Shown: positions 1 through 62,702 of the stretch, piece after piece
Layout: every line of letters begins with the position of its first letter
How positions within the stretch are numbered: the stretch's first letter is position 1
NCBI GenBank assembly: GCA_949751835.1
Contig: CATKHK010000014.1
Coordinates: 1 to 64,000 of the forward strand
Origin: Blepharisma japonicum
Taxonomy: Eukaryota; Ciliophora; Heterotrichea; Heterotrichida; Blepharismidae
DNA length: 64,000 bases
Direction: 5' to 3'
Translations under genes and position numbers: made by a program
Notes under the pieces: generated by a model
What the model was told of the DNA's origin: nothing
Databases searched by the model: none
Seen by the model: the letters and a program-made list of their open reading frames with translations, nothing else

Positions 1-2
1 AC

Positions 3-3400: not shown

Positions 3401-5990
3401 AGTCTTCCTTAATTTGTAATAAGAGATTTCCGATTTCGTTTTTATTTATAAGCTCACGCAAACTATGAACATCTGAAGCTGATTTTATAATTGAAATATT
3501 TATTTTAAGTGCTTCAATGTCACTTTTTCCAAGGCTTCCTTTCTTTAATGGAGCAATTGAATTATTAAATCGTTCTTTTAAGCTTGAAATAAATTGATTT
3601 TTTAGAAGATTAAGCTTCTCATCTAAATTTGCATAGCCCAAGTGTTCACGGGCTATTACCAAATGCCTTTCTGCTTCAGAAAGATTATTAGAAAAATCTA
3701 CGAAATTGGTATTTTTCAAATCTGTACTTCCAGATGACAGTAAATTTTCAATAAAATTTACATATTTGTCGCAAAGACTTTTATAAAGAGGAGCTAGGTC
3801 TTCAAATGACTCGCCTAAAATTTTACCATTTTTTAACTGAGTACTCAAAATATAATCATCTACCTCATCAAGTTTAAACTCTGACTGAGTAAGACTTAGC
3901 CTGTTAACAAGATTTTCTAGCATTCCTTTCGATGGAGGTGTTTCCTCTCTCAAATGCTTTTCTCTAATTTTGTCTGATATTTTTAGGGCTTTATAAATTT
4001 CTTTATAATGCTTTATGGTGTTTTCGTCTAAAGTTCCATTATTGTCTAGAAAGCTATTAAATTGTAAAATTGTTTTGTGATATGTATCCTTAGTAGCTCT
4101 GATTATAGATTCAACACATTCAGCATATTTAGAATTAATTTCCGTAAATAGCGCATCAATATACGCGAGCTCATCCAATCTATATCTGATCATATCATAA
4201 TCTAGAGAATTTAATGCTGCTTCAATTTCTTTTGTACTAATCTCTACTTGGTGTTTTAGTAAAACCCTTGAATCTTCAGTTATAAATCTTTCAAAAGCAT
4301 ACTGTGGGTCCAAAATTGGATCTCTCTCCATTATTTTCCTAAGTAATTCTTGATAATTGTCCTTAATAGGATGAATAGTCAAGGCTCCATCTATTGTTTT
4401 ATCCCTTATATCTTTCAAAATATGAAAAAATGCTGTATCTGCATTTTCTTGATTTTTAAGTATCAATTTTACTTTTCCATGTATATTTGCCGCATCCGCC
4501 TTTTTATACTTTGTAAAAGCGTATGTAAATGATAAGCTATATTTATTAAAGTCAGTGATGAGCCTTCCTAAAGTTTGAGCAAGTTTTTGGACTCCTTCAA
4601 ATCTATCTCCTTCAGTTTTTGAGCTTAGCAAAATTAATGGCCTTACACTTCTGCATTTTTTTACATACTCGACAATACTTATTGTATTCGCCATGTCTAC
4701 TTCTGGTCCACTTGTATCCATTAATCCTGGAGTATCGCATAAAAAAATTATCCTATCAGAATCAGGTATATTTAGTGGAATATGCGTGATATATCTCGTT
4801 TCTGATTGAGCATGACTTGAGATGATAGTTTGTTTTAATGCAGAGTTTTTTATAGAAGTAGCTTTAATATCACTGATTCCTTCTTCTGTACGAGTTTCCA
4901 TTGTAGATCCACATAAAAAATGTGTTGTTGTTGATTTTCCTGAGCCTGTAGCCCCAATTAGTAAAATAATGTCTTTATTTTCTAAATCCCTAGAGTTTTT
5001 GGTTGATTTTTTAATCAAACGATCCATCTCCTTTATGTTAACAGGCCTATAATCTTTAAGGATTTTTTCTGTTTCTCTTATCAAACTTCCTCATTCTTGG
5101 CTTTCATAATATTTTCGGAAATTTTCTGGGACATCTTCTTCCCCCTTTTTTATTAAAAACTCAATGTAATTGCTGAATTCTTTTTCAGGATTTATAATTT
5201 CTATTTTTCTGTGAATATACAGCTCTGGGTCAAAATTATAGGTTTTATAATAGGCGTAGCACAAAATACTAGTAAGAAATCGTTCAACGCAAATTGGCAT
5301 ATTCTTAATATCATCCATCAACCCATCAATGACATCAATTTTTTTTTGAGTAGCAATTTCTATAGGGTTTATAGCCAACAAAGGATTTGAGCGTAATTTA
5401 TTGCGACTGGAACGCAGCCATTCCAAATCAGCAAGTTTATCTTCTTCAAGTTTTGCAATACTAAGATTTTTCTTCTTTCGATTAAATGTGATAGATCTTC
5501 TAGTAGTTTCTATGGCTTCTTCTATCTCATCAGGACTTTTGAAATCATATTCGGTCAACCCCTTTCTCAATTCGTCTTCTAAAACTGCAACTTCAGCAGT
5601 GTTTATGTCAGGACGTTCTTTAGCAAATTCTGGCAATTGCATTTCTCCTTTAGTTATTTCTATCTTAGCATCTAGAATTTTTTGATATTTTAAAGTTTTT
5701 GCCGCAGGAAATTTTTTGCCAAGCTCAAATGAGGCTGATCCTAGTATCTCTTCACCTTTTGGGGTCTTCTGGTAAATAATTAAGGATAGAGATCTGAAAA
5801 GGCCAGGATCTATTTGAACAGGAGGGAGATTTGAAAGCTGGGACACTATGGAAGTGGGAGATCGATAGATTTCTTGGGGAGTTTTAGAGTCTGCTAAGGC
5901 AAAACTAAGTTCTGGATTTGGAACTTTTTTTGACTTCCAATCAAATGATTTTACCTTAAAATTGAGAATTGGATAGCTTTTAGGAATCAT
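288..5990 (-). CDS. Giant-family copy A: C2-like/AIG1-like GTPase protein, lacking the SecA and vWA modules
   Basis: One continuous frame of 1900 codons when TGA is Trp, from ATG at 5988-5990 to TAA at 288-290. Residues 1-125 are beta-rich and C2-like. A charged helical segment and a conserved 'ICVERFLTSILCYAYYK' block follow. The GTPase has a P-loop GATGSGKS (346-353), DTPG (420-423) and a probable G4 variant TKYKKAD. The remainder is long helical sequence. It tracks copies B and C up to 'KEDFNK' near base 315, then ends after seven unrelated residues, just before the point where the relatives go on to their SecA-like part. It therefore lacks both the motor and the vWA domain. The reading frame is otherwise intact, so a shortened GTPase-only protein is possible. 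By family resemblance (GIMAP/IAN, Toc) the GTPase may act at membranes; the role is unknown. Confidence 0.8.
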
Positions 5991-6414: not shown

Positions 6415-7210
6415 TTTTTAACTGTCTGCTTGTCTTCAGAGACCTTTTTCCAAATTAATTTTCTCTTTTATAATGCCAATGGTATAGTTAGAATCCTTAA
6501 AGCCTAAATTCCCATAAAAGACCAAGCCCATTAATTTTGTTTCATCCTTAAGAAGACCAAAACTCACCTTTGCCTCCGCTTTGCGTAATATTTGATTATC
6601 AATCTCCTTAATATCATATTCATTCTCTACATATTTTTCTCATAAACTTCTAAAATATTTAAAATTCTTGTAACTCCCACAATATAATTGAATTTGTAAT
6701 GAATTTCTCCGTCTGAAAATATATCTAAGATAACTATAATGGAAATATTATCCTCAAAAAATATTTTGCTTATAATAAGTAAATAATGTTTTATATTCTT
6801 GATAATGACTGAAATCAATACAATCATGAATTTGATATCCAATTTTGGCATAATTGAGGATTTAAATTTCTTTACTTGATCTTTTTTTTCCTGGCAAGAA
6901 CTCAAAATCTGGGAATTGTTTGTTACAGCTGCTATATACAGACACCTGCTCAATAAGTGAAGACCATTTCTAATTTATCATATATATATCTTATAAAATC
7001 AATTTATTGCAGAATGCTTCAATAATTTTAATTGGGCAGTAAGAATTTCAATAGAAATATTTGCTGAAAATTCATCATCAACCTCATCTATTAGCAGAAT
7101 TTTAGGTCTTTCTGAATTTTTTTGATTTATTTAGTAATATTTCGGTCTCTGTAAAGTTTAAGGCCATCTTTCTTATATTTCGCAAAATTGCCATAATGTT
7201 GTGGCTTATG
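6415..7210 (-). pseudogene. Relic of the SecA-like module of a giant-family gene
   Basis: Two recognisable pieces of the giant family remain on the minus strand. At about 7080-7118 the Walker B block reads ERPKILLIDEVD, identical to copy B's, then diverges. At 6500-6730 a stretch like 'HKFNYIMGVTGTLETLGDYEKN' of copy C is followed, after a one-base frameshift and a TAG near 6627, by residues aligning to the 'VFFEEETKLMDFY' block. The SecA NBD1 and NBD2 pieces are shortened and broken, so this is a dead copy. It lies directly upstream of copy A, which itself lacks this module. Confidence 0.75.
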
Positions 7211-9222: not shown

Positions 9223-12200
9223 TTAAGTATATGAGCGAGGATACATTTCTCTATAAAGCTTTACTGCATCTTCTCCAGCAGACTTTCTTAAAACCTCTTG
9301 TGATACCAAATCGGTAAGTCTACTAGCCCCTGAGCTTGAATTAATATCTAGAAACCCACTTTGGCCTTTTGTTAATCTTGAAATCTCTTCAAATTTCATT
9401 TTGGCATCATCATCGACATAAAAGGCATTTATTGGGATTTGCTTACTTATAATTTTTGTTAATTCTCTTTCATAATATTCGACACTTCTAAATTTCGAGC
9501 GATTTCAATAATCTGATCGTCTACCTCGTTTTCAATCAATATCCTCAATAGTATTTGGAGGACGGTCGCCAATTAAAATTACTTGCGAAATTCTATCATT
9601 TTGTGAAATATTATTTATGTGCCATAATCCAACTTCTATAGCTTCATTTCCTTGTCCACCTTCAGGCCCCACATTTTCCATAAATCTTTCTAGAATATCA
9701 GACTTATTTGTTCATGCGGAAAATTGGAGTATTTTATCTTCGTTTGAACTATAGTTTCTATAAACGCAGTACTGGAGCTGAAAACAGTCAGAACTTACTC
9801 CTTTCTTTGATAAAACTTCACAAACTCTTTTAAACATTTCCTTCACAGTATTTTTGGCATTTTGCAATAAATGAGACATAGACCCAGTTGCATCCATTAA
9901 AACAATTGTTTTTGAGGTTTCAATATTAATGGCTATGCCTTTGTTGAGCTCATGCAGAAACCCTTTAGCTCTTCGCACATCATTATTCTGAAGAAAGCCC
10001 TGAAACTCAACTGAACTATCATGCGATGCTTTAGATTGTTTCACATTGCTAGATTCGTTGCTATTCTTAATTTGATTATATTTATTTCTTTTTTCATTTA
10101 AACCATCATAAATAATTCCATTATTTCTCATATTTTCGATATCAGTTTTAGAGACTAAAAACTTTTCTAGCTCAGGGCCTAAAAGAACCATACTAAATGA
10201 TCCTGGCTGACCTTGCCTTGCTGATCTTCCCATAATTTGAGCTTCCTCTGATATATTTTCTGAAAAAAATACTTGGATTGCATGAACTCCTCCATTTGTC
10301 TCGATTTCATGATTTTGGCATTTAAAATCAATTCCTCTACCATAAGCTCTCGTTAATAATGATACAGTATTTGGAATTGTAGCTTTTTTAATCATCATAT
10401 TTCTGCTCTCAACACTCAAGCTTTCAGTCATAAGCTGAATCTCATAATCAATATTATTTTTCAGCTTTGCATTATAAAAATGCATTAATTTTACTTCATC
10501 TTCGAAAAATACCAAAACAGCTCTCTTGCAGCCATCAAATTTACCTTTTATTCTAAGATCTATTTCTTTCATTATTTTCATATAATAATCATTCTTATTT
10601 TCTATGTTAACGTCCGAGTTTTTCTCAAATTTTCTGTTATTTTCACCAAATACTGATGGCATAAAGGTATCTAATTTTATTTCATATTCATTTTTTATAA
10701 TATTCTTTTCATAGTCTCCTAAAGTTTTTAAAGTTCCAGTGACTCCCATAATGCAGTCAAATTTTTGAGGAATTTCTGCATATGAAAACATGCCACATCT
10801 AACTCCAATAAAAATATTTTCATCTAAGCTTCCTCGAGAAATATTCCCCCTTTCATACTCACGGTAATATGCAAATAATGTATTATATCCATAAACAATA
10901 TTAAATGAAACTCCATCATTTTCTTTGTAACCAATTTTATCATGCATGACTATATAATCATGTGATTCAAACTGTTTCACGTGATTTACCATGTCTTTAA
11001 CAGCCTCTTCAACAAGAAATTCAAATCCAGAAAAATGCTGACAGCAGCGCTTATATTCAGATGCATCTCATATATTCATCAGCTGTGGTGTATTTCTTAC
11101 TCTCCATATATAATCCGTTAGTCTATTAATTGTATCATGCTTCAGCTTAGCAAGAGGTCTATATATATTTCCATAGAAAGATTTGGTGAAAAATACATCT
11201 ACTTCATCTATTAGAAGAATTTTTGGTCTTTCAGCAACTCCTCTATTCATTCCTGAGCATCTTCCAGAATTTATGAAATCTAAAACTATCTTTCTAATGT
11301 CACCTTTGGAGTTTATCTCATCTTCACAAAGTTTGTTAAAAGTCCCATATTTTATATAAGAAAAAATTTTTAAAGCTGTAAATAAAGGTTCGAACTCTTG
11401 AAGATCTCTATTGCTTAAATGTTCACTATAGCAGGCGCAGTTAACTGCGAATCCTAGTAGAGCAAGCATTGAGCACAAAAATGCTAATGTGATTGATTTA
11501 CCTTCTCCTGTTAAGATCTGAACTAAATTATTTTTAGGTCTAGTATTTTCATCATAGCCAATACCAATCATTCTATATATTGATAGGACCTGTACTGGAT
11601 GTGGAATAATTTCTGTAATCTGTTCATCTGGATCATTTATATTTTGATTATATTTTTTTATATTCAGAAGCACCCATAGCATTGCAATATAAGCTAAAAG
11701 TTCAGGAATAAAATCTTTAAATAATCTGAAATCTTTGTTTGAAGGGCTTATTGCATGTCTTTTAGACAGCATCTCTATTTGGCTTACTATTTGAGCTATT
11801 GATACTTCTACTCCATTATTACTTGCAATTTTTCAATAAACTCTGTGTACCTCAGCATAATGCTCTTTATAATTGTTATATTTATCTCGTAGCTCGCGCT
11901 TATTTAAACAAGTGCCTTCTATCTTTTCAATTGCGTAATTTATATCGTGCACTCCAGTTTTATCCAACCACATTCTTTTATTTACCCCTTCAAAGAATTT
12001 ATGTTCTTGAAGTATATAAAGTCCAAATCCACTTGGATGCTTTTCTAATTCTTGAAAAATTGCGAAACCTATAGTTTTATTATTTATCTTTCTGAGTGAT
12101 TCTAAAAAATTATCCATTATTTTATCAAGCCCTTCTTTGAGCAAAGGAAAATTATTTGAAATATTTTTCATTTTTATCATAGACTCAACCATTTCTCCAG

Positions 12201-15200
12201 GTATTCTGGTTGCTTCAGCCTTTGCTTTTAGCTCCAGAGTTTTATTATAAATTGTGTTCTCAATACTTGTAAGTGTCTTTTTTCAATCAAAACCTTCGAC
12301 TTTTAGATTTTTCTCAAACTCAATAAGGCAATTATAATAAATTCGAATTTTAACAAATTCTTCATTTTTAATTTCTTCTTTTCTGATCAAAATCGAAGCA
12401 TCATCCACAATACGATTCATTCCTCTAGATATTGAATCAAAAGCAACTGTTTCTACGTTTTCAAAAACAGCAATTTGAGGGTTTAGATGATTTTTTATGC
12501 CCTCATAATTTTTTATTTGGTTTAATTTTTCTTGAATTTCTTTAGTACGATCTTCAAGTATTTTTTGGTGCTTTATTTCATCATCATTTATTTTCATGTT
12601 AAGAAAATAATCGTTTAATTCATCCAGTGTTTTGCTTAAATCATCTGAAAACTCAGAGTAACGTGGTAGTTTTTCGATTTTTAAATAGTCGATGCTGCGA
12701 TGATATTCTTGATATTGTGACAAATATTCTTTATATATTCTGAAAAACTCATCCCACTCACTAATTTTATTTAATGTTCTATTGCAGTTATGAGTATTTT
12801 TTGGCGGTTTAGACTCTAAATAACTTTTTTGGAGTCCTGTGTAAAAGTCTAATATACCTAGCAGCATCCTATCAATATCATTATTAAGCTCAAAAATATT
12901 TGAAATAGTCGTTTCCTTTTCGAAATTTACTTTAAATACCATGAAAATATTATAAACTTTGAAAGCCTCTATCAACTCTGCACTGTTATCTTTATGCTCA
13001 ACATTTTTGAGAGCCTTTAAAGCACTTTCAACAACTCCCTTAAGATTTTTTTGAACTTCTAAAAATATTCAATCACCGTTATCTATTATGTCATTTATTT
13101 TTCCTTTGAATTCCAAAATCCAAGCATTTTTAAAGGCTTTCTCTATTTCGCCGTTTTTCAGACAAAATTTTATCTCATCTTTCATATGCAATAAAACTTC
13201 TATTAATTTTGCTGCTAAATATTTGGCATCTGATGGTAACAGCTTATTTTTTGATTCGCGATACAATATACAAAGTTCTTTTATATTTTGCTCTTTTGCT
13301 AGTATATCGATTTTTTCTCTTATATATTTTTTTTGATCTTTATAATTTTTCATAATGTCATTAATCAAACTATTAGCTAAATTTTTAAAGTCATCCGGCA
13401 AAAAATCTAAAATTGATGAAACTTCTTTAGTAATCACCTTTTTTTCGTATTGATTTTTTAAAGCAATAGTGCTTCTTATACTATCAAATTTTTCAATAAT
13501 TATTTTTTTAACTTCACCAGGGGCGCTTTTATATTTTGGAAAATCTTTAGAAGCATCTTCAAATTCTTTCAAAATTAATCGGGGAGAGCATCCATTAAAT
13601 TCTTTGATTTTGCATTTTCTCATGAGTGAAATAATTGATTGTGGAAAATCATCAAGCTTTTGGGCTATTTTATTAATATTAGCTATTCAAAAATTTTGCC
13701 CAAAGAGTTTGTCTAAACTGCTTTTCAAAACTTGGATACTTTTCAATTTTACCTCAGCTTCATAATATTTATGAGAATTAATAGCACCTTCAATTGTATA
13801 TAAGAATTCCAAAATTTTATCAGTAAATATTTTTTTAGCTTCTTCCTCTTGGCTGATAAATAATTGCTCTATTTTCATATCTAATAATAAGCCATAAAGA
13901 TTTAATTCCTTAGCAGAGATAATTTCTTGAAAATTTGTAAGCATGATGCTTAGTTGGACACTGTCTAGCTTAGAATTGTTTATATTTAAGGCATTTTCTT
14001 TAAGATTTTTCAATAAATTTTCAATTTCACAATAAAATTTATCTTTAATTATATCTATAAACTGAGTAAATGCTGCTTTATCAAGTTTTCCTATCAATTG
14101 ATGTGTTTTATCAAAATTATGACTCTTAATAGATTGAATTATATTTTGGCATATTTCATCTTGCTTGGAATTCTGAATTATTTCATAGCGATTTGAAATT
14201 TCTAAAAAATTATCATTAACTTTGGCAAAATCATTAGTAATAGCTAACAGAGGAGTCATAGGTTTTAGCTCGTTATTTTCAACACAAATTCTAAGCTTTT
14301 CATCAAATATTGAGCATAAAGTATTAAGCTCTTTGCTATAATGGTCAAAGTGAGGCTCTAGATCTAAAAATTTGAAAAATGATTGGGATTTTGATTTTAA
14401 TAGTAATATTTCTTTGAAACTTAAAGAAAATTGAAGAGAATTTTGCTTTATGATGCTCAAGTCTCAGCTTCTGTGAATTGAAATATGCACCGAAATAGCG
14501 TTAAAGTATTTATTCGAAGAAATGATATGATTGTTATAGAATTGAGACAGCATGGGTATAATATTTGTATACAAAGGTTCGATAATTTCAGATAATTCTG
14601 GTATATTTTTGCATTCCTCAATATAATTATATGAATCTTCTATTCTATCAATATCAAATACATTCTTAACCAATTTTTGCTGAAAAATTTCAATAAAATT
14701 TTTCTTTTTGCTAATTTCTAAGTCTATTTCTTCAATGCTCTCAACATTATATATTTCAAGCAATTCTTCGCATTTTTTAGCTTCCTTTTCTTCTTCATAT
14801 TGTGAATACTTAAGCCGAGCACTTATTAATTTGTCTAATTCATTATTTTCCTCTGCAATATCTTCCAATTCAGGGTTAAACTCTCTTTTTATTAATTTTA
14901 GTGCTTCTTCAACCCTTTCTTTGAATTTTATTCATATATTTTTGTCATAAACCTCCAACGAAGGAATAAATGCTTTTAATTGCAAAATAGGATCCAATTT
15001 TTTGACAATATTGTATCCTTTAGATATATTGGCAGAATAATTGATTCCTAAATTAATTTCTTTCAAATCAAATAATAATTTGTTAACGTAATTTTTTATT
15101 TCTTTTTCTATTCCTGAGAGCTCATTGCTGTAAACCCCTTCTCTAAATTTTTCAATTCATTTTCCTGACTCAAGCCAAGAAAAGCAATTAAGCAAATTAT

Positions 15201-17733
15201 TAATGTCAGTGGAGTCTGGAGAAATGATAAAGGCTTTGACAATTTCTCTTGCTTCTTTTTTGAAATAGCTTATCTTATTTATAAGAGAATTTAAAGTTTC
15301 TTGATAAGAAGCAGCAATTAAATATTCGATGTCAGGAATTTCCATCAAGAAACTGAATTCATCAAATTTTGTTTCAATTTCAGCTACGTTAAATGTGGAT
15401 TCATTATTGATAAACTGCATCACATCATTTTTTATATTTTCAAAGTATTGATGATACACAGTAATAATTGTTTGTAGAAGGGCTTTTATATCTGCTTGGG
15501 GTATTAGGGAATTTAAAGTTTGAGTATCAATAGCTGATTTAATAAGAGATATGCTTTTTTGAAGAATTTCTATATCATTTTTTTCAAAGTATCCTTTATT
15601 TATTAAAGAAACTGATTTATCTCTTCACTCTGTTAAATTCGAATAAAAAATCCTTAAAAGGAGGAGATGCTTTTCTTCTAAAGCTTCTAAATTTAAATGA
15701 TCCACAATAATTTCTAAATATTTCTTTGATTGCAATAAGGTACTTGCAAATCTATCGAAATTATTATCGTTTAAAAATGACTCAGCAGAAAACAATAAAT
15801 TTTCAATGAGATTTATATAATCTTTGCAAATGCTCTGATAATATGGAGCTACATCGTTAAATGTTTTACTCAAAATTTTTGCATTATCTAATTGAGCTTT
15901 CAAAATATAAGAATCAGTAGTTTCAGATTTTAAGTTGAGATGAGCCAGGCTCAGTTTTGAGACAATATTGGTTATCATTGCTTCTGATTTGACAGTTTCG
16001 CCTCTTAAATGACTTTCCCTGATTTCTTCTGATATTTTTAGAGCGCTATAAACTCCCTTATATAATTTTATATTATCTTCATCCAAAGATCCATGCTTCT
16101 CAAGGAAGCTGTTAAATTGGACAATTGTATCATTATAAACATTATTAGTTTTTTTGATCACTGATTCCACAGAGCCATTATATTGTGTCTCAAATTGGTT
16201 AAATAGGGTTGCTAAATACTTAAGATCGTCCAGTTTATATTTTATGATTTCATAGCTCATTGAATTCAAAGCTTTTTCAATATCTTTTGAATAAATTAAT
16301 ATTTGATTTTTTATAGCTAGCCGAGAATCTTCAGTTATAAAAGTCTCAAACGCATATTTTGGGTCTAATATTGGCTCTCTTTCCATTATTTTTCTAATAA
16401 GCTCTTGAGGATTATCCTTTAATGGATTTATAGTTATGGCTCCATTTTTTGTTTTATTTTTCATATCATTTAAAATATGAAGAAATGCTTCATCTGGATC
16501 TTCAATTATTCCTAAAGCATTTTTTATCAATGCATGCATATTTGCAGCGTCTTTCTTTTTGTACTTTGTAAACACATAGGTAAACGAATTGCTATATTTA
16601 CTGATATTAGGAACAAGTTTAGTCAATGCATGAGCAATTTTCTTGACTCCTTCAAATCTGTCGCCTTCAGTTTTGGAGCTTAATAGAATTAATGGTCTTA
16701 CACTCCGGCATTTTTTAACATACTCAACAATGCTGATTGTATTTGCTATATCAACCTCTGCACCACTTGTATCCAGTAGTCCAGGGGTATCGCACATATA
16801 AATTGTCTCTTCGGTGTCTTTTATTTTTATTGGCACCATAGCGATGTATCTAGTTTCTGATTGAGCCTGAGATGATATTATGGTATTTTTTAAGACAGGA
16901 TTTTTTACGGCAATAGCTTTGATATGCATCACACCATTTTCCAAAATTCTCTCTAATTTAGATTCGCATAAAAAGTGAGTTGTTGTTGACTTTCCTGCGC
17001 CTGTTACTCCAATCAGCAAAATAATGTCTTTATTTTCTAAGTTTTCAGAGAATTGAGTTGATTTGCTAATTAATCGGGAAAGTTCCTTTATATTAATTGG
17101 GCGAATATGCTCTTTAAGAATTTTTTCTGTATCTTTAATCAAAATTTCCCAATTTTGATTTTCAAAGTTTTCTTTAAAGCTATGAATAAGTTTTCTTGGC
17201 AAAATTTCTTGCCTATTTTGATTTAAAAATTCAATGAAATTTCTGAATTCTTGAAAAATGTCTATTTGCCCAATCCTTGTGTGAATGTCTAGTGCAGCAT
17301 CAAAATCATAGCTTTTGTAATATGCATAGCACAAAATGCTTGTAAGAAATCTTTCAACACAATAGGGGTAAGATGAAATATCGCTTAAAATCCCTTCAAT
17401 GAAGTCTAATTGTTTTTTATTTTCAACTTCCTTCATATCTAAAATTATCATAGACTTCAAAGTAGTTTGCTTATAAATAGCATTCAGTTTTTCCAAATCC
17501 TCGAGAAGTTTTTCTTCTTTTTTAGCTTTGTCTAGTTTTTTGAATTTTAGAAAGAATGAAATCTTTTCTTTTGTATCGTTTATTAATTCTTCTAATTGTT
17601 CTGGATTTTCAATGCGATATTTGTTCAATCCTCGCTCCAGCTCTTCTTCTAAATTTTCTTCTTCCAAATAACCTTCATCATTATTATTTTTTTGGGCCTT
17701 TTTTGCTAATTCTATTTCTTCATGTAACTGCAT
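9223..17733 (-). CDS. Giant-family copy B: GTPase / SecA-like ATPase / vWA protein, N-terminally shortened
   Basis: A single open frame with TGA = Trp, ending in TAA at 9223-9225. The first in-frame ATG is at 17731-17733 and an in-frame stop lies upstream at 17770-17772, giving 2836 aa. The GTPase P-loop GVTGAGKS is at about 242-249, with DTPG about 73 residues later. The SecA-type motor has TGEGKS (about 2075-2080), DEVD (about 2176-2179), a VTGT block, YGRGIDF and GRSARQG (about 2502-2508). The vWA domain has MIDAS DATGSMS (about 2614-2620), a GGQGNEA loop and LIGDRPP near the C terminus. Compared with copy C it lacks the C2-like domain and most of the first helical repeat; homology stops at about 17748, where the Sel1-flank sequence begins. 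It is thus a 5'-truncated but otherwise uninterrupted copy, and whether it is expressed is open. Confidence 0.8.
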
Positions 17734-17914
17734 TAATGATTTTGTCACATCAATGCATTGATAAAGAATTTATGTTTTAAAAGTGTAGTTTTTAATAAAT
17801 CAGAATAATTGCCATATTTATTAAAACTTTGGTCAACATCTACCATTTAATTAATTTTAAAACTTTAGTCAAATTTTTCAATTATATATTAAGGATGATA
17901 AAGTCTAAAAATAA

Positions 17915-19349: not shown

Positions 19350-19485
19350 TTAATTATATGAGCGATGATACATTTCTTTATAAAGCTTTACAGCATCTTC
19401 TCCAGCAGACATTCTTAAAACCTCTTGTGATACCAAATCAGTAATTCTATCAGCCCTGAGCCTAAATTAATATCTAGAAACCCAC
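19350..19485 (-). pseudogene. C-terminal tail fragment of a giant-family gene
   Basis: The minus strand matches the last ~45 codons of copies B and C ('LRKSAGEDAVKLY' region, then YPRSY-like end and TAA) with base changes and a one-base deletion near 19456. Homology stops at about 19485, where sequence matching the flank at 8399 begins. This marks the junction between the tandem units. Confidence 0.75.
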
Positions 19486-20278
19486 ATGGATTAAGAAATA
19501 CTTTATCTACCTTTATGGCTTCTTATAGAATCAGCTCTTTATTTCTCTTCCAATTTTTATTGCCATCAATTGTTTGTGATCTGTCAAACAGCTTTAAAAT
19601 TTAATACAACAGAATTGGCTTGTCAAATTCTACTTGGCATAGCAAAAAGATTCAAATCGTAAAAATATAGTTCAAAAATCAAAGTTATCAATTAAATTAA
19701 GCTCAGTTCACAAATGATATTTATATGATGAAGTATAATTAAAAAAATCTTGATATGAAGAAGAAGCATTATCTATTGCCTGTTCTCCTTACAAAATTCA
19801 TAGAAATACTGAAGCATCAATTATATAAAATATCTACGTTATACTTTGCTAATAATGCAATCTCTTCAAATTTTTATTAAGTTCTATTGCTGAACTTATA
19901 GCCCATTTGGCAAAGAATTATTATTTTATTTTAAAATATGTTAGAAAGGATATTAATTGTTGGAATGTTTCTGAGATGATAGTAGAAAAATTTTTATGAT
20001 CTTTTATTGTGATAAAGGCTCAATAATTAACTAATTTAAAAACTGTTAATATAGGATATAAAAGGCGAAGACAAACTAAATAGAGCTGTAAATTTATTCA
20101 AAATTAAAATATTTAATATATTTTTGATAGCTAATACTTATTGCTAGATCACACAAAGTAAGCAATATTTATTTCTTAGAATATATGGCTTAGAGTTCTC
20201 AAAATGAAAATTGATTGAAATAAAATATTTTATTGATTATAATGAATAATAATTTTATAAAATAAAGTAAGTTTATAA

Positions 20279-23200
20279 TTAAGTATATGAGCGAGGATAC
20301 ATTTCTTGATAAAGCTTTACAGCATCTTCTCCAGCAGACTTTCTTAAAACCTCTTGTGATACCAAATCAGTAAGTCTATCAGCCCCTGAACTTGAATTAA
20401 TATCTAAAAACCCACTTTGGCCTTTTGTTAATCTTGAAATCTCTTCAAATTTCACTTGAGCAGAGTTATTGACATAAAAGGCATTTATTGGGATTTTTTT
20501 AACTATAATTTTTGCCAATTCTCTTTCATAATACTCGACACTGCTAAATTTCGAGCTATTTCAATAAGATGATCGTGCACCTCGCTTAGAAGCAATGTTC
20601 TCAATAGTATTTGGAGGTTTGTCGCCAATTAAAATTACTTGCGAAATTCTATCATTTTGTGAAATCTTATTTATATGCCATAATCCAACTTCTATTGCTT
20701 CATTTCCTTGACCACCTTCAGATTTCACATTCTCCATAAAGCTTTCCAGAATATCAGGCTTGTTTGTTCATGGGGAAACTTGTAGTATTTTATCTTCGTT
20801 TGAGCTATAGTTTCTATAAACGCAGTATTGAAGCTGAAAACACTCAGAACTTACCCCCTTCTTTGATAAAACTGCACATACTCTTGAAAACATAACTTTT
20901 ACAGTATTTTTGGCGTTTTGCAACAAGTGTGACATAGACCCTGTTGCATCCATTAAAACAATTGTTTTTGAGTTCCCAATATCAATGCTGAGTCCTTTGT
21001 TAAGTTCATGCAGAAACCCTTTAGCTCTTGGCATATCATCATTCTGAAGAAAACTCTGAAATTCAACTGAGCTATCATGCAGAGCTTTAGATTGTTTAAC
21101 ATGACCAGATTCATTGCTATTCTTTATTTGATTATATTTATTTCTTTTTTCATTTAAACCATTATAAATCGTACCATTATTTTTCATATTTTCAATATCA
21201 TTTTTTGAAGCCAAAAATTTTTCTAGCTCACTATCTAAAAGGACCATGCTGAATGATCCTTCTTGGCCTTGCCTTGCAGATCTTCCCATAATTTGTGTTT
21301 CTTCTGATATATTTTCTGAAAAAAATACTTGGATTGCATGCACTCCTCCATTGGTCTCAATTTCATGATTTTGACATTTAAAATCAATTCCTCTACCATA
21401 AGCTCTTGTTAATAATGATACCGTATTAGGAACTGTTGCTTTTTTAATCATCATACCCCTGTCTTCTGCACTCAAGCTTTCTGTCATGAGCTGAATTTCA
21501 TAATCAGTGTTCTTTAGATTTGAATTGTTATAAAAATCCATTAATTTTGTTTCTTCTTCGAAAAATACCAATACAGCTCTTTTGCAACCTGCTTTTTTGC
21601 CTGTCATTTGACTATTTATTTCGGACATTATCTTCATATTATAATTATCTTTATTTTCTACATAAATATCCAAATTTTTTCTAAAAATCCGGTTGCTTTC
21701 CCCAAATACTGATGGCATATAAGTGTTTAATTTTATATTGTATTCATTCTCTATAATATTTTTTTCATAATCACCCAAAGTCTCTAAAGTTCCAGTGACT
21801 CCCATAATGTAATTGAATTTGTGGGGAATTTCTGCAAATGAAAACATTCCGCATTTAATTCCAATAAAAATATTTTCTTCTAAACTTTCTTGAGAGATAT
21901 TTCCCTTTTCATTCTCATAATAGTATGCAAATAATGTATTATATCCGTAGACTATATTAAATGAAACCCCATCGTTCTCTTTGTAGCAAATTTTATCGCG
22001 CTGAACTATATAATCATGTGACTCAAACTGTCTGACATGATTTATCATATCTTTAACAGCCTCTTCAATGAGAAATTCGAATCCTGGAAACTGCAAACTG
22101 CAGAGCTTATATTCAGGCGCATTTCAAATATCCATCAGTTGAGGTGCTTTTCTTATTTTCCATACATAATCCGTTAGTTTATTTATTGTATCATGCTTCA
22201 GCTTAGCAAGAGGCCTATATATATTCCCATAGAAAGTTTTTGTGAAAAATACATCTACCTCATCTATCAAAAGAATTTTGGGTCTTTCCTCAGCTCCATC
22301 ATATACCCCTGGACATCTTCCAAACTTTATGAAATCTAAAACGATTGTTCTGATGTCGCCTTTAGAATTTATTTCATCTTCGCAGAGCTTGTTAAAAGTC
22401 CCATATTTTATATATGAGCAAACATTTAAGGCTGTGTATAATGGTTGAAAATCTTGAAAATCTCTATTGCTTAGGTGCTCACTATAGCAGGCGCAGTTCA
22501 CACTAAATCCTAACAGAGCGAGCATGGAGCACAAAAATGCTAATGTGATGGATTTTCCTTCACCTGTTAGGATTTGGACTAAGTTATTTTTAGATTTGGT
22601 GTTCTCTTCATAGCCAATGCCAATCATACGAAATATTGATAGAACCTGTATTGTATGTGGAGTGACCATATTAATTTCTTGATCTTCGTCATTTACATCT
22701 TGATTATATTTTTTAATATTCAAAAGTACCCATAGCATTGCTATATGAGCTAAAAGCTCAGGGATAAAATCTTTAATCAGATTAATATCTGGGTTTAAAG
22801 AGGTTATGGCATGATTTTTGGATTCTATTTCAGTTTGGCTTAATATTTGAGAGATTGCACTATCCACACCTTCATTACTTGTAATTCTTCAGTATATTCT
22901 GTGAAGCTCACCAAAATGTTCATAATACTCATTATATTTATCCTCTAGCTCATTTTTATTTAAATTTGTACCTTTTATGTGATCGAGTGCATAATCTAAT
23001 TTATGCTCTTGGGTTTTTTTTACTCACATTCTTTGCATTACTCCCTCAAAGAATTTATGCTCGGTTACTATATAAATTCCTAGTCCGCTTGGATGCTTTT
23101 CTAGCTCCTCCGATATTGCTACAGCTAAGGCTTTGTTTTTCTTTCGAAAGGTTTCTAAAAAGGCATCCATTATTTTATCTAGGCTTTCTTTTAGTAAAGG

Positions 23201-26200
23201 AAAATTAATTGAAATGCTCTTCATTTTTATCATAGGCTCAACAATTTCTCCTACTTGAGTTCCAGCTTCAGCTTTTTCTCTTAATTCTGTAGTTTTGCTG
23301 TAAATTTTGGCTTCAATTCCTCTGAGAGTCTTTTTCCAATCGAAACCTTTGATTTTCAGATTTTTCTCAAACATAACCAAACAGTTATAATAAATTCTGA
23401 TTTCGTTGAATTCTTCTTCCCTAATTTCTTCTTTGTTTATTAAATGTGAAGCATCCTCCACAATCCTATCCATTTCTCTGGATATAGAATCAATTGCCCC
23501 TGATTCTATTTTTTCAAAATTAGCAATCTGAGGATTAATATGATTTTTTATGTCTTCAAAATTTTTTATTTGGTTAAATCTGTCTTGAATCTCATTAGCA
23601 CGGTCTTCAAGAAGCTTTTGGTGCTTTATTTCATCATTTTGAATTTTTATATTAATAAAGTAATTATTTAATTGGCGCAAGATTTCACTTAAGTCGTCTA
23701 CAAGCTCAGAATAGCGCGGTATATTTTTAATTTTTTTGTAGTCCATGTAGACGTGGTAATTTTCGTATTGTGATAAATATTCTTTAAAAATTCTAAAAAG
23801 CTCATCCCACTCTTTTATTTTGTTTAAAATTTTATTGCAATTATGAACATTATTCGGAGGCCTATACTCTAAATAGCTTTTGTTGAGATTTAGATAAAAT
23901 TCAGAAATACCAACTAGCATGGTTTCAATATTATTGCTAATATTAAATATATTTGAAACTCCTTTCTCTATTTCAAATTTTATTTTAAAATTCATAAAAA
24001 TGGTATAAAATTTGAATGCTTCAACCAGTTCAGAACTTTCGTCCTTATGATCAATATTTAGTAGAGAGTTCAAAGCAAATTCAATAGTTTTCTTAAGACT
24101 CTGCTCAATATTTGATAATATTCAGTCACTGTCATTAATTATGTCCTTTATTTTATCTTTAAACTCCAAAACCCAAGCATTTTGAAAAGTTTTCTCTCAT
24201 TCGCGCTGATAAATGCCAAGATTTATTTCATCTTTATAAGTTAATAAAATTTCTCTTAATTTCGTTTCTATATCATAAGATTCTCATACAGATAACTGAT
24301 TGATAGGTTTGCGATGCATTGCACATAACTCTTTTATATTTCGTTCTTTTGCTAAAATGCAGATTTTTTCTCTTGTATATTTTTTTTGCTCTTTATAATC
24401 TTTCTTAATATCATCAATTAAAATGATCGCTAAATTTTTAAAATCATTCGGCAAAAATTCTAAAACCGAAGAAATGTCAGTAATAATTAATTTTTTTTCT
24501 TTAGGGGATTTTTCTGGTATAGCACGCTTAATGGCGTCGAATTTTTCATAAATTATATTTTTAATTTGGTTAGGGCTGTCTTTATATTTTGGAAAATCTT
24601 TTGATGCATCTTCAAATTCTTGCAAAATCAAGCGAGGATGATAATCTTTATAATCTTTAATTTTCGATGATCTCATATTATGAAGTATGGCGCGTGGCAC
24701 TTCTTCAAGTTTCTTTTGAGTTTTATAGGCATGCTTATCCCAAAATTGCAATCCAAAGATCTTAATTATGTTGCTTTTCAGTTCTTGGGCATTTTTCATT
24801 TTGACCTCAGCTTCATAATATTTGTGAGAATTAATGGCGTTTTCAATTGAATATATAAATTCAATAATTTTATCCATGAATATGTTTTTAATTTCTCTCT
24901 CCTGATCGATGAATAATCTCGCAACTTCTCCGTCAAGCAAGCTATAAAAATTATAAATCTTTAGAGGAGCGATTTTTTGGAAATTTGAACATATAGCATT
25001 TACTTGGGAATGGTCTAACTTAGAATTGGTTATATTTGAACAACTATCTGTAAGATCTTTCAATAAACTTTCAATTTGACAGTAAAATTTCTCTTTAATT
25101 ATATCTATACTTTGCCTATAAACTGTTTCATCAAGCATTGCTATTAGCTGATTTGATTTTTCAAAGTTGTGACTCTCAATTGATTCGATAATGCTTTGGC
25201 ATGTTTGATCTTGCTTTAAATTTTGAATTTTTCCATAATTAACTGAAATTTCTGCAAAATTATCATTAACTTTGGCAAAGTCATTAGCAATAGCTAATAG
25301 CAAAGACAATGTTTTTAATTCGTTTTTCTCATCACAAATTCTAAGCTTTTCATTGAAAATTGCACTTAAATTATTGAGCTCATTGGTATAGTAATCAAAA
25401 TGTGGCTGATATTCTAAAGATTTAAAAAATGATTGAGATTTTGCATTCAATAATAAAATTTCTTTAAAACTCAAAGAAAATTGATGAGAATTTTTCTTTA
25501 TAATATTTATGTCCCAATTCCTGCGATTAGATATTTGGTTAAAGATAGCATCAAAGCATTTTTTTAAAGAAATAAGATGATTATTGTAGAATTGAGATAA
25601 TAAGGAGTATATATTTGAAGAAAAAGGCTCAATAATTTCAGAAAATTCAGGTATAGCTCTGCACTCCATAATATAGTTATATGAATTTTCAATTTTATCG
25701 ATATCGAATATATTCTTCTTTAATTTTTTACTGAAAATTTCAATAAAATTTTGAATTTTGATTATTTCTGTATTAATTTCTTCAATACTTTCCAATCCAT
25801 ATATTTCAAGGATTTCTTCTTTCCTTTCTTCTCCATAATGTGGATACTCATTCCTAATACTCATTAATCTTTTTAAATCATTATTTTCCTTTTCAATATC
25901 TTGCAATTCTGGGTTAAACTCTCTTTTTATGAGCTTCAGTGTTTCCTCAACTCTTTCTCTAAAAATTATTCAAATATCTTTATTATAATTTTCCAATGAT
26001 GGAATAAATTCTTTCAATTGAAGAATTGGATACAATTTTTGAATGATATTATATCCTTGAGATACATTAAAAGGACAGCTAATTCCTAAATCAATTTCTT
26101 TTAATTTAAATAAAAGCTTGTCAATATAATTTTTTATTTCTTTTTCTATTCCTGAGATTTCATTACTGTAAATTCCTTCTCTTAATTTTTCGACTCATTT

Positions 26201-29200
26201 TCCTGACTCAAGCCAAAAGAAACAATTACGCAAGTGATTAAAATCTACAGAATCAGGAGAATTTATAAATGATTTAACAATTTCTTTTGCTTCTTTTCTG
26301 AAAAAGCTGATCTTATTTATCAGTGAATTTAAACTTTCTTGATAAGAAGCAGAAACTAAATACTCTATATCAGGTATCTCCATTAGCAGACTGAATTCAT
26401 CAAATTTTGTTTCAATTTCAGCTATATTATTTGTCGCTTGATTATTAATAAATGATATCACATCATTATTAGTCTTTTCAAAGTATTGTTGATATACAGT
26501 AATAATTGATTGCAGAAATTCCTTTATTTCTAAATTTGGGATAAGAGAGTTTAATGAATGAGTATCATTAGCTGATTTTATCATTGAAATATTTTCCTTA
26601 AGAATTTCGATATCATATTTTTTAATATATCCTTTGTTTAATAGTGCAATTGATTTTTCACATCTTTGTCTTAAGCTTGAAATAAACTTATCTAAAAGAA
26701 GACTATATTTTTCTTCTAAGTAATTTAGATTCAAATGATCTAATGCAATTTCTAAATATTTCTTCGCTCGCAATAAAGTATTAGCAAAATCCTCAAAATT
26801 ATTATTATCCATATAAAATTCAGCAGAAGACAATAAGTTTTCAATAAGATTTATATATTCTTTGCAAAGACCTTTATAATGTGGAGTCACATCTTCAAAT
26901 GTTTTACTCAAAATTTTTGCATTATTTAATTGGGCCTTTAAAACATAAGAATCAATAGTATCAGATTTTAAGTTCAGATGAGCAAGGCTAAGCTTTGAGA
27001 CAATATTAACTACCATTGCTGCTGATGTTACAGTATCGCTTTTTAAATGGCTTTCCCTAATATTTTCTGATGCTTTTAGAGCATCGTAAATTTCTTTGTA
27101 AGCTTTTATATTATCATTATCCAAAGTTCCGTGTTTATCAAGAAAACTATTAAATTGAGTAACTGTTTTATTATATGTGTCATTGGTTGTTTTGATTACG
27201 GAATCAACGCAACTAATATATTGAGGCTCGAATTGTTTAAATAGGCTTGCTAGGTATTTAAGATCGTCCAATTTATATTTTATTATCTCATAATTCATTG
27301 AATTCAAGGCTTTTTCAATATCTTTTGAATAAACAGATACTTGTTGTTTTATAGACAAACGTGAATCTTCAGTTATAAAGCTATGGAAAGCATTTTTTGG
27401 ATCTTCTATTGGCTTTCTTTCCAATATTTTTTGAATCAATTCTTTTGGGTCATCTTTTAATGGGTCAATAGTTATAGCACCATTTGTGGTTTTATGTTTT
27501 ATATCATTTAAAATATGAAGAAATGCTTCATCAGGAATTTCAATTTTCTTGATAGCATTACTCACCAATCCATGTATATTAGAAGCGTCTTTCTTTTTAT
27601 ACTTTGTGAATGCATATGTAAATGAATTGCTATATTTATTGAAATCAGGAACAAGCCTTGCTAATGTATGAGTCAATTTCTTGACACCTTCAAATCTATC
27701 ACCTTCATACTTGCTACTTAATAAAATCAATGGTCTGACACTTCTGCATTTTTTAACGCACTCAACAATACTAATTGTGTTCGCCATATCAACTTCTGCT
27801 CCATTTGTATCCATTAACCCTGGGGTATCACATAGATAAATAATTTCTTCAGAATCTTTTATTTTTATTGGCACCAAAGTAATATATCTAGTCTCCGATT
27901 GGGCGTGCGATGAAATTGCTATGCTTTTTAATGTGGGATCTTTTACAGCAATAGCTTTGATATGCCTCACACCGTCTTCCAGAACTCTATCTAATTTGGA
28001 TTCACACAAAAAATGGGTTGTTGTTGATTTTCCTGAGCCTGTAATTCCAAATAGCAAAATAATATCTTTATTTTCTAAATATTCAGAATATTGAGCTGAT
28101 TTGCTGATTAAGCGAGAAAGTTCCTTTACATTAATAGGACGAATATGCTCTTTTAGTATTTTTTCTGTATCTTTAATTAAATATTCCCAGTTTTTATTTT
28201 CAAAATTTTCTTTAAAGCTAGTAATAAGGTTTCTTGGGAAGATTCCTTGAGTATTTTGATTTAGAAATTCAAGAAAATTCCTGAACTCTTTATAAGGATC
28301 TATTTGTTCAAGTTTTTGGTGGATATATAATATTGGATCAAGTTCATAGCTTTTATAATATGCATAACATAAAATACTTGTTAAAAATCTTTCAGCGCAG
28401 ATGGGAAGTGATGAAATATCGCCTAGCATCCCTTCAAGATGGTCTAGCTGCTTTGTATTTTCAATTTCCTTAGGATCTAAAATTATCATAGATTTTATGC
28501 TAATTTTTTTGTAAATAGAATTCAAATTTTCCAACTCAGCAAGTAATTTTTCTTCAATTTTTGCTTCTTCTAATCTTTTTCTTTTTATGCAAAAAGAAAT
28601 ATTTTCTTTCGTGTCAGCTATCATTTCTTCCAGCTTTTCAGGGTTTTCAATGTTGCATTTGCTTAAACCTTTCTTTAGCTCTTCTTCTAAATTTCCTTCC
28701 TCAAAATTATTTTCATTATGCCTATTTTTTTCATTCTCCTTTGCTGTTTTCATTTCTTCGTGCAATTGATGCAATCTTTCAAGACCTTTAAGTTTATTTT
28801 TTGCTTCTTCTTCATCTTCAATTCTTTTTTTTCTACGATAAAAAGCAATATCATCCTTCGTTTCTTCAATTTTTTCAGCTAGATTATTTATGTCATCAAT
28901 TTCGTAAAGCCTCAACAGCTCATTTATCTCCTGCTCATTTCTATTTTCTATATTATTTATTTGTAGATTTCTACGTTTTTCGTTTGAATCACTTTTATCA
29001 GGAGCTTCTTGAATTATTTCAAATGAATTTTCAATGTTTTCTTCTTTTGTAATTTCTATTTCTACGCTTAAAATCTCGTCATTATTACTAGGAATGCTTA
29101 ATCATGTTTTCAGAGGAATATTTGGGCTAAGGTCAATTAAAGCTGACCCTATCAATTTCTTTTCATGGAGAGCTTGCATATAAAAACTAAGCGTCAGCGA

Positions 29201-29404
29201 ATTAGACAGATCTGCATCAAATTGGATAGGACTGAGGTTGGAGATTTCAGACAAATCAAAGTTGGATGATTGGAAGATGAGCTGGGATGTAAGGGAATTA
29301 GTCAAAGTAAAACTGATTTCTGAAATTTCATTAGAATCTTCTTTTAACTTGAATTCAATTTCGTTGACCTTAAAGACAAGAAAAGAATTAATTCCACTGA
29401 TCAT
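20279..29404 (-). CDS. Giant-family copy C: C2-like / AIG1-like GTPase / SecA-like ATPase / vWA protein, full length
   Basis: An uninterrupted, intron-free frame of 3041 codons with TGA = Trp, ATG at 29402-29404, TAA at 20279-20281. Order: C2-like beta domain (1-125); two successive ~80-residue charged helical repeats (about 160-300); the PICAERFLTSILCYAYYK block; GTPase with GITGSGKS (453-460), DTPG (526-529) and TKYKKKD (600-606); ~1600 residues of helical sequence; a SecA-type motor with TGEGKS (2280-2285), the SecA signature DEVD (2381-2384), MGVTGT (about 2534), YGRGIDF and GRSARQG (about 2707-2713); and a vWA domain with MIDAS DATGSMS (2819-2825), GGQGNEA and LIGDKPP. SecA is known as a preprotein motor in bacteria and plastids; here the domain between DEVD and VTGT is short, so the classical substrate clamp looks reduced. 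The function is unknown. It may be a membrane-linked NTPase machine with a metal-dependent binding domain. Confidence 0.88.
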
Positions 29405-31934: not shown

Positions 31935-32289
31935 AAATATAATAATAGTCTCTATATAATATTTTTTCAACAATCTTTAAATAAAAATATTTATGCTTTC
32001 TATTTATAGTAAAAACTGCCATGTATTGAACTTTGATTGATCTTAAGTAACGCTGCTTCACCTGCACCAATAAATCTAGCGGGATACAATCATCGGGCGC
32101 ACTTTCTTCCTCAAATTCCCTAATCCCATTGAGTATTTAACTGCAGGAGTTAAGGAATCAGGCATGCTATTTTAATTATATTCAGAGTGACCAATTTTCC
32201 CGATTTTTAAATAGTTTTATAACTCATGGAGGGAGTACGTATTTCATGTTTTTCACAGCTAAATATGCTAGAGCAAGTACAAAGTGAAA
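31935..32289. other. Intergenic
   Basis: No gene seen. Cassette homology ends at about 31975; beyond it the sequence is unique in the window. It contains the start region of the minus-strand E2-like gene. Confidence 0.4.
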
Positions 32290-33250
32290 GTAATATTCTT
32301 TTGTGATTTAGAAAAATTGCTCAATATTCATAAAAGCATCAGTTTTAGGTCAATGTTTATTATAGATTCCAAAGAAATTGAAAAACAAAAGCAAATCAAT
32401 TTTCTCGAAAAAATGCCAACTGATATTTTATCTGTGCCTAATTGTCGAGAAAAGCATCTCACAAGCATGTTATGTTTCGCTTATTATAAAAGCTTTAATT
32501 TTGATTTAGCATTAGAGATAAAATTAAAATTGCTATGTCTTCAACCCATCTTCTCAAATCTTGCTATGTTTGAAGCCTGACTTCGGTCTTAAGCCAATGC
32601 TAGATCGTGGAGAGGTGTTTAAGGTCTTATTGTGTTTGGATATGGCTAAATTATTGATATTTTCTGTATTAGCTTCGTCGAATTTATAGTGAATCCTTTA
32701 AATTATTCTATATTTTCAGTACAAAGCAGTATCAGTAATTTTACTGCATTAGACATACACCAAAAATTGAGTCTATAGATTCTTATAGGAATTTTGCAAT
32801 TTTAATGAATATTTAGACCAAATAGCAAAGGGGACCTTCCTAGAAAACTTATTTCCAGTTTTCGTGAAAATTTTAATAACCAATTCTGGGACAAATTAAT
32901 TATTGCTACAGAAGAAATTTTAAAACAATATATCCAGCCTGTTATAAAGGAGCTTTCCCGTTTGTCATTAAATCAACTCAACATTTGAAAATCTAGAAAA
33001 TAAAGATATTGCTTTGCTAATTGGTGTAACAGGTCCAGGGAAATCAACAACAGCTCATTTTTTGTGCCACAGCGGGATAGCATGGATTTTATGGGGAATA
33101 AAGATTTATTTTAAAAATTATTTAATTCTAGAGTAAACTCTAAAACTGAAGGTGATAGATTTGAAGGAGTTAAAAACCTGGCTCGTAATTTGCCCATACT
33201 TCTTCCTGACTTTGATAAATATTATATAAGATTATTTAAAAAATTATATA
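32290..33250 (+). pseudogene. Broken plus-strand fragment of the giant-family GTPase region
   Basis: The translation follows copy C residues ~295-480 in pieces: 'ISFRSMFIIDSKEIEKQKQ' and 'HLTSMLCFAYYKSFNFDL' (32338-32515), then after ~245 unrelated bases 'RKLISSFRENFNN' (32844-32890), an ENKDIALLIGVTGPGKSTT P-loop (about 32997-33050, other frame), and 'NSKTEGDRFEGVKNLA' (33137-33185). Frameshifts, stops and missing blocks (the DTPG segment is gone) make it a pseudogene. Its orientation is opposite to copies A-C. Confidence 0.85.
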
Positions 33251-62677: not shown

Positions 62678-62702
62678 TTATATTTCAGTTATATATTTAA
62701 TT

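Follow-up and report, generated by a model that had tools for sequence, protein, structure and literature searches.

A giant protein family shared by a ciliate and bacteria

Here, we analysed the first 64,000 nucleotides (the window) of contig CATKHK010000014.1 of the ciliate Blepharisma japonicum (assembly GCA_949751835.1), and we describe in it a giant open reading frame (ORF; protein P0001) along which an AIG1/IRG-like GTPase, about 1,500 residues poor in proline and glycine, a motor of the SecA type and, by a weak match, a vWA domain follow one another. The same order of GTPase and motor was found in bacterial genomes, and in some ciliate relatives a complete beta subunit of actin-capping protein (CapZ-beta) stands ahead of the GTPase. 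The finding is therefore wider than a first-pass annotation, made from the letters of the window, had stated, and concerns a giant family across domains of life together with the capture of a host gene. The domain order was not described in the titles and abstract openings searched, a search that lay outside most subscription journals.

When TGA was read as tryptophan, positions 20279-29404 of the minus strand formed a single frame of 3041 amino acids (aa) plus a stop, holding 11 TGA codons, which confirmed the 3041-codon frame of the first-pass annotation; under translation table 11, the longest piece of this region was only 906 aa. According to a report on the genome of Blepharisma stoltei (PMC9942806), its somatic genome comprises 41 Mbp with 66% AT, UGA encodes tryptophan, and introns are mostly 15-16 bp long. 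The reading of TGA as tryptophan and the small, AT-rich genome seen here agree with Blepharisma. The window opens a 574-kb contig (C14) in an assembly of 45.2 Mb and 224 contigs. Seven of the ten neighbouring frames scanned matched Pfam families (kelch, RPGRIP1-type C2, TPR, protein kinase, TRAUB/AATF, armadillo/LamG and SLOG), and families such as kelch, RPGRIP1-type C2, protein kinase and TRAUB/AATF indicate that the contig is eukaryotic, which supports the first-pass annotation on this point. The parts of the ORF are as follows, rows being aligned sequences.

20279..29404, minus strand: giant ORF (P0001), 3041 aa plus stop, frame with TGA as tryptophan
29015..29404, minus strand: N-terminal 130 residues, common to all seven ciliate rows aligned, the ORF included
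28088..29014, minus strand: charged linker, aa 131-439, perhaps a coiled coil (composition and alignments)
27305..28087, minus strand: GTPase domain, aa 440-700, with G1 GITGSGKS and G3 DTPG and without canonical G4 (Pfam, Foldseek, alignment)
22805..27244, minus strand: long region poor in proline and glycine, aa 721-2200, no Pfam match (Pfam scan, composition)
21080..22762, minus strand: SecA-type motor, aa 2215-2775 (Pfam, PDB profile search, alignment)
22550..22567, minus strand: Walker A TGEGKS, invariant in 10/10 ciliate rows aligned
22253..22264, minus strand: Walker B DEVD, invariant in 10/10 ciliate rows aligned
21803..22252, minus strand: insert where SecA has its preprotein cross-linking domain, placed by position and length only
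21266..21286, minus strand: helicase motif VI GRSARQG, invariant in 10/10 ciliate motor rows
20345..20977, minus strand: vWA-like domain, aa 2810-3020 (profile, weak fold match)
20930..20950, minus strand: variant DATGSMS of the metal ion-dependent adhesion site (MIDAS), by motif

In residue numbers, GITGSGKS begins at 453, CDTPG at 525, TGEGKS at 2280, DEVD at 2381, GVTGT at 2535, GRSARQG at 2707 and DATGSMS at 2819. The N-terminal 130 residues matched no family or structure in the Pfam and PDB searches, and a C2-like N-terminus, suspected by eye, was dropped because both returned nothing C2-like. The region of aa 721-2200 is presumably helical. The first-pass annotation had also called the protein membrane-linked, and this part did not stand: six 19-residue windows of the ORF reached a hydropathy of 1.6 or more, all of them starting at residues 2284-2289, in the motor just past Walker A, so that the sequence gives no sign of a transmembrane helix.

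The motor belongs to the SecA superfamily

In the whole protein, Pfam placed SecA_DEAD (PF07517) at 28.6 bits against a cut-off of 24.6 and Helicase_C at 23.8 against 23.5, and SecA_DEAD was likewise over the cut-off in a second copy in the window (paralog 2). The motifs reported for the GTPase, the SecA-type motor and the DATGSMS site were all present, and the motor motifs do not arise by chance. We then searched PDB with a profile built from ten paralogous motors of the ciliate. Of 27 sequences at E ≤10, the top 24 were all SecA (E 2.5e-11 to 3.4e-5), followed by two of the DEAD helicase Mss116 from E 0.12 and then by CD48. No other helicase family competes, and profile searches, which had been set beforehand as the refuting test, leave the motor with the SecA type. 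The spacing of the landmarks Walker A, DEVD, TGT and motif VI was 99, 158 and 170 residues, compared with 104, 179 and 185 in an ordinary SecA of the bacterial genome G002. The SecA assignment holds because the PDB profile search finds SecA first and because this spacing resembles that of ordinary SecA.

Pfam SecA_PP_bind was not listed for the ORF, although the insert has about the right size and place for the preprotein cross-linking domain. Among the NCBI SecA equivalog models, one matched the ORF, at 18.5 bits where 725 are required. Judged by its sequence, the motor is a member of the SecA superfamily and not a SecA orthologue. What it has in common with SecA1 and SecA2, by sequence and by the fold of a weak model, is a pair of helicase lobes with TGEGK at Walker A, DEVD and motif VI; an insert also lies between the halves of lobe 1. 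It differs in its place near the C-terminal end of a chain of about 3,000 aa, with little room for the C-terminal domains of SecA. An AlphaFold model computed from a four-row alignment had low confidence (predicted local distance difference test, pLDDT, 46.9), and Foldseek with this motor-vWA model returned SecA at ranks 1-20 and vWF A1 from rank 24; these ranks are taken as support only, the template modelling (TM) scores being low.

The GTPase and vWA-like domains

For the GTPase, MMR_HSR1 scored 16.9 bits on the whole ORF protein, below its cut-off of 21.9, and passed with 23.6 bits when the GTPase piece was scanned alone, with AIG1 second at 17.9 bits, below its cut-off of 27. All nine ciliate GTPase rows matched the AIG1 profile at E up to 1 (best 4.3e-5). 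G1 was kept in 9/9 rows, and G3 read DTPG in eight and DAPG in one. A PDB profile search with the GTPase alignment gave nothing convincing (best E 0.018). The AlphaFold model from a five-row alignment reached a pLDDT of 57.5, and in Foldseek Irga6, Irgb10, GIMAP7, GM4951 and Toc34 occupied ranks 1-6, with IRG at E 6.2e-6 and a TM-score of about 0.2. Of the AIG1-like GTPase in the first-pass annotation, G1 and G3 are kept, the AIG1 profile stays below its cut-off and canonical G4 is missing. With AIG1/GIMAP, IRG and Toc34 (TRAFAC class) the domain shares G1, G3, a weak AIG1 profile match and the best Foldseek neighbours of its model; it differs from them in G4, in falling below the AIG1 cut-off, and in the long region and the motor that come after it. 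The very large inducible GTPases (VLIG) are likewise giant, interferon-type GTPases with long helical parts, and they are not known to have a SecA motor.

The vWA domain is the least certain of the domain calls made from sequence. The VWA_2 profile matched five of ten paralogs (best E 3.5e-4), the ORF itself scored 15.3 bits, below the cut-off of 27, and a PDB profile search with the vWA alignment gave zero matches. The MIDAS was intact in 4/10 ciliate rows and lost in 6/10. What the domain has in common with VWA_2 and vWF A1 is thus a weak profile and fold match and a DATGSMS variant in the minority of rows. The proposal that the vWA is an adhesion module is weak, the MIDAS being lost in most rows.

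Bacterial genomes encode relatives

We scanned one genome per species of 84,980 prokaryotic species with two peptide patterns, a choice that makes the recall of the scan low. Among the 120 stretches matched, two encode relatives: L024 in a Chlamydiae metagenome-assembled genome (MAG OFTM140) and L025 in a Gammaproteobacteria MAG (OFTM54). As a follow-up, a five-row profile was run at E 1e-20 on 232 Chlamydiota (the phylum of G001) and 369 sampled Gammaproteobacteria (the class of G002), and it found 6/232 and 4/369 genomes, of which four and three, a total of seven, hold giants. The remaining three (L045, L046 and L047 in G038, G105 and G521; two Chlamydiota genomes and one gammaproteobacterial) encode SecA-like frames, 1130-1283 aa in length and with a long extension at the N-terminus, at first-cut E-values of 8.7e-23 to 6.6e-22; they were left out of the giant count because they fall outside the giant clade in the tree, and they fall outside ordinary SecA as well.

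The ORF matched the GTPase and motor parts of L043, L044, L025, L024 and L041, the motor-vWA part of L040 and the motor of fragment L042. With E-values computed for a set of 22 sequences, the GTPase profile found six of the seven bacterial giants, L040 included, and missed the N-terminally cut L042, and the vWA profile found three (G296, G002 and G074) of the six with a complete C-terminus. Six bacterial genomes thus hold the GTPase-motor order, three of them with vWA, so the architecture is not eukaryote-specific and the novelty claimed for a eukaryote alone falls away. Counted from the start codon, the five uncut giants measure 2792, 3010, 3093, 3323 and 3462 aa, and SecA_DEAD was over its cut-off in four of them; L024 (1706 aa) and L042 (599 aa, a motor-only fragment) are truncated by contig ends.

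An ordinary SecA stands beside the giant in both G001 and G002 (frames of 1025 and 913 aa), called ordinary by length and by the zinc-type C-terminus. In G001, the ordinary SecA scored 46.9 bits and the giant 715.4. All ten frames scanned beside L025, L043, L041 and L040 matched bacterial-type families, including RNase H, NhaA, PrkA, aconitase, GGDEF-EAL, an amino-acid transporter and RuvB, which indicates that these giants lie in bacterial chromosomes.

The distribution is sporadic. In the orders of the three gammaproteobacterial hosts, relatives were found in 1/1, 1/1 and 1/3 genomes, namely the hosts themselves, and in 398 genomes of the phylum of G002 the single match was G002. In IMG/VR, 45 and 47 stretches fitted the patterns of two profiles and none encodes a relative; tblastn found no match in plasmids (motor-vWA parts of L025 and of the window ORF) or in phages (that of the window ORF). 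P0001 and the protein of paralog 2 (P0002) had no match in an anti-phage defence library, and L043 matched the dynamin-like LeoBC at 30.3 bits. Chlamydiota are a phylum associated with protists, and the Chlamydiota hosts of the giants probably live in or with protists; to extend this to the gammaproteobacterial hosts is a guess.

Two of the bacterial giants showed further peculiarities. The Chlamydiota giant L041 (L041:3427-13398) carries about 1,490 residues ahead of its GTPase, with SidM_N and leucine-rich repeat matches there under the cut-off, and an ankyrin-repeat gene adjoins it. In L025 (L025:2756-13144), a long serine-rich run inside the motor separates Walker A from Walker B.

The ciliate motors form one clade with the bacterial giants

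In a tree of 22 ciliate and bacterial motors, the ten ciliate motors formed one clade (100/100), and ciliates and bacterial giants together formed another (100/100), on a branch, 2.26 changes per column long, that separates them from ordinary SecA and from the 1130-1283-aa kind. Without the long row G367, the ciliate motors grouped with the three vWA-bearing bacterial giants (90/93). We favour, on the sequences compared, an acquisition of the family by the ciliate from bacteria. Sequence databases also contain entries from other ciliates and from rotifers under the name SecA.

Some family members have captured CapZ-beta

An F_actin_cap_B domain precedes the GTPase in the same frame in two relatives of the ORF, C169:1-3243 (L012) and C140 (L023). 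The matches are nearly complete (E 1.6e-70, profile positions 3-237 of 237, on C169; E 4.3e-73, positions 2-237, on C140), with scores of 237.9 and 246.3 bits against a cut-off of 26.3. Genome-wide, PF01115 matched seven places, four of them at giant-family loci (one each on C140 and C169, and two on C208), each time from profile position 2 or 3 to 235-237 of 237. The capture was read in frame at two loci, and at the two C208 loci it was placed by position only; there, the distances from CapZ-beta to GTPase are a multiple of three and similar to the spacing on C169. The other three places are 266-aa frames on C51 and C118 and a divergent match in a 280-aa frame on C73.

The identity of the C169 CapZ-beta is 90, 86 and 86% with the other giant-locus copies, 80 and 75% with the 266-aa frames and 38% with the frame on C73, and PF01115 had zero matches in 14 control prokaryotes. 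This identity to standalone genes and the lack of matches in the control prokaryotes indicate capture from the ciliate's own gene. Between two embedded copies, the synonymous divergence (dS) was 0.097 and the ratio of nonsynonymous to synonymous divergence (dN/dS) 0.64. The complete domain thus resembles ordinary CapZ-beta and differs in being embedded within a giant protein, in relatives and not in the window ORF, which carries none; it occurs at 4/12 strong GTPase places. The C140 frame (C140:52122-63992), which runs for 3956 aa to the contig end, has a second block resembling the middle region, then CapZ-beta, then the order from GTPase to vWA.

The ciliate family is multi-copy, mostly tandem and mostly under purifying selection

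SecA_DEAD was over its cut-off at all 11 candidate places in the genome (four on C169, two each on C14, C98 and C25, one on C140), all of them in frames that match the ORF, and the family is mostly tandem. A GTPase search gave 16 rows. Of these, 12 are strong places (E at most 4.3e-76), and C208 has two of the strong ones; the four weaker rows comprise two relics of the window and two places on C63 at about 30% identity. GTPase matches occupy the same end positions of C169 and C208. A vWA search gave 14 rows, relics included. Besides the ORF, five further long frames, 35-71% identical, hold GTPase and motor in one frame, which makes six such ciliate loci. The long frames measure 3041, 3058, 3110 and 3113 aa on C14, C169 and C25, 2848 aa on C14, and 3956 aa on C140. 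Two more copies (C98 and C169) are each divided between two overlapping frames, and some copies run off contig ends. The window itself holds the following copies and relics.

9223..17769, minus strand: paralog 2 (P0002), 2848 aa, without the first approximately 200 residues; GTPase 16267-17049, motor 10024-11706, vWA 9244-9981
288..5990, minus strand: paralog 3, 1900 aa, ending before the motor, near the contig end; GTPase 4212-4994
6630..7112, minus strand: motor-domain relic between paralogs (tblastn E 2.2e-8)
19356..19486, strand not given: relic found by similarity search of the window
32281..33222, plus strand: relic of N-terminal and GTPase parts, on the strand opposite to the ORF (similarity search)

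Nei-Gojobori dN/dS values for ten pairs were 0.14, 0.20, 0.22, 0.26, 0.28, 0.31, 0.34, 0.34, 0.51 and 0.71, four of them rough because dS exceeded 1, and most pairs (8/10) are under purifying selection. In the pair formed by the ORF and paralog 2, constraint was strongest in the GTPase (0.15) and the motor (0.16), and the long middle region stood at 0.25.

A possible machine of bacterium-protist contact

Each step of the mechanism that we propose is drawn from the families named above. The AIG1/IRG-like GTPase would dimerise or, at a target, would assemble the chain; the long region, presumably helical, would span and transmit; the SecA-type lobes would pull on or remodel a captured polypeptide outside any SecYEG channel; and the vWA domain would bind a partner where its MIDAS is intact. 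The part ahead of the GTPase would be exchangeable in the ciliate and would choose the target. CapZ-beta at the four loci might then be an address that takes the machine to dynactin or to the barbed ends of actin, or alternatively a bait for some microbial protein directed against capping protein. We thus propose a laterally shared, soluble giant machine of bacterium-protist contact, driven by nucleoside triphosphates and assembled by its GTPase, in which a SecA-like engine remodels polypeptides and which was retargeted in the ciliate by capture of a host gene; we regard this reading as a little short of an even prospect. A polypeptide substrate would follow from the kind of motor, the transfer from bacteria to the ciliate is the direction that we infer, and two observations, the shared distribution and the likeness to immune GTPases, suggest the role in contact.

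The SecA of the textbooks is a motor attached to the Sec channel, and giants on both sides of the divide between bacteria and eukaryotes suggest a life outside secretion; the ordinary SecA beside the giant in the two bacterial genomes looked at is in line with such a role for the giant's engine. Through the CapZ-beta captures, the machine's site of action, or the thing that it senses, becomes open to test.

Several observations weigh against this proposal. Only 112 residues separate motif VI from the MIDAS, leaving little room for the helical scaffold and wing of SecA, and both AlphaFold models are of low confidence, with TM-scores of about 0.2 against their best matches. Past rank 6, the Foldseek list for the GTPase is mixed (Nog1, bacterial dynamin, GBP1, mitofusin and HflX). 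The canonical G4 motif is N/TKxD, and none of the nine ciliate GTPase rows has it; they read TKYK, TKYN, TKYI or TRYE, so guanine specificity cannot be assumed for the ciliate GTPase. The bacterial L024 carries G4 as TKMD. The motor of G367 has the variant motifs PSGQGKS, DELD and RTQRQG and scores 22.6 bits for SecA_DEAD against the cut-off of 24.6. Some ciliate copies are decaying, with frame breaks, relics and a dN/dS of 0.71 in one pair. Finally, in the tree without G367, a constraint that unites the six bacterial rows costs 7.7 log units (approximately unbiased, AU, test, p 0.122), so that one bacterial clade is not rejected and the direction of transfer that we favour is tentative.

The sporadic bacterial occurrence, the ankyrin-repeat gene beside the Chlamydiota giant and this AU result would also suit a transfer from eukaryotes to bacteria, by which the gene would be a host-acting protein of protist-dwelling bacteria. 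However, the motor resembles SecA, which is a bacterial protein, branch lengths show more divergence among the bacterial rows than among those of the ciliate, and the ciliate frame is unbroken over 9 kb; we consider the reverse transfer credible but rather unlikely.

The best Foldseek neighbours of the GTPase are immune GTPases, the family is tandem, multi-copy and partly decaying, and a host CapZ-beta closely similar to two standalone genes sits at four giant loci. These features could also reflect cell-autonomous defence or symbiont control, in which an IRG/GIMAP-like immune set would sense microbes with a variable N-terminus, CapZ-beta would be an integrated decoy, and the SecA engine would pull microbial proteins. 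The fold model is weak, however, the embedded CapZ-beta ratio, taken over so small a dS, leaves diversification and relaxation indistinguishable, the bacterial homologues would need a different role, and neither P0001 nor P0002 has an anti-phage library match. Defence as the main role is therefore a possibility that we take seriously and think improbable on balance. Still more speculative, and decidedly doubtful, is the combined idea that a bacterial SecA-powered giant GTPase, exchanged with protist-associated bacteria, became a surveillance family with the ciliate's own CapZ-beta fused as bait; this would be an integrated-decoy system, with a SecA engine pulling protein without a Sec channel, in a single-celled eukaryote.

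As a housekeeping motor linked to actin or dynactin, the protein might serve trafficking or cytoskeleton turnover in the large ciliate cell, with CapZ-beta as a plain address. Such a motor is consistent with a whole or nearly whole CapZ-beta at four loci, with purifying selection and with the lack of an indicated transmembrane helix, but CapZ-beta occurs at a third of the strong GTPase places only, and a presence in 4/232 and 3/369 genomes is ill-suited to housekeeping in bacteria. We judge it unlikely.

A relocated organelle preprotein translocase, SecA-like and working with a Sec channel, would explain why the SecA lobes and the insert are kept in place, but it is very improbable for a giant soluble protein with two other modules, little room for the C-terminal part of SecA and many tandem copies. 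An artefact of motifs arising at random, of contaminating DNA from a bacterial symbiont or of separate genes joined into one, for which one could cite the bacterial homologues and the several copies that end at contig ends, is scarcely tenable, being contradicted, transcript structure aside, by the 574-kb contig with eukaryotic neighbours, by TGA as tryptophan inside the frame and by GTPase and motor in one frame at six ciliate and six bacterial loci.

Other features of the window

An Rfam scan of the window gave 0 matches. The contig starts within another open stretch (window 1-449), and the array seems to be broken by the assembly. At window 62673-63788, on the plus strand, the SLOG domain matches the prokaryotic LSDAT model (E 1.6e-22), and it is perhaps another bacterial-type domain in the ciliate.

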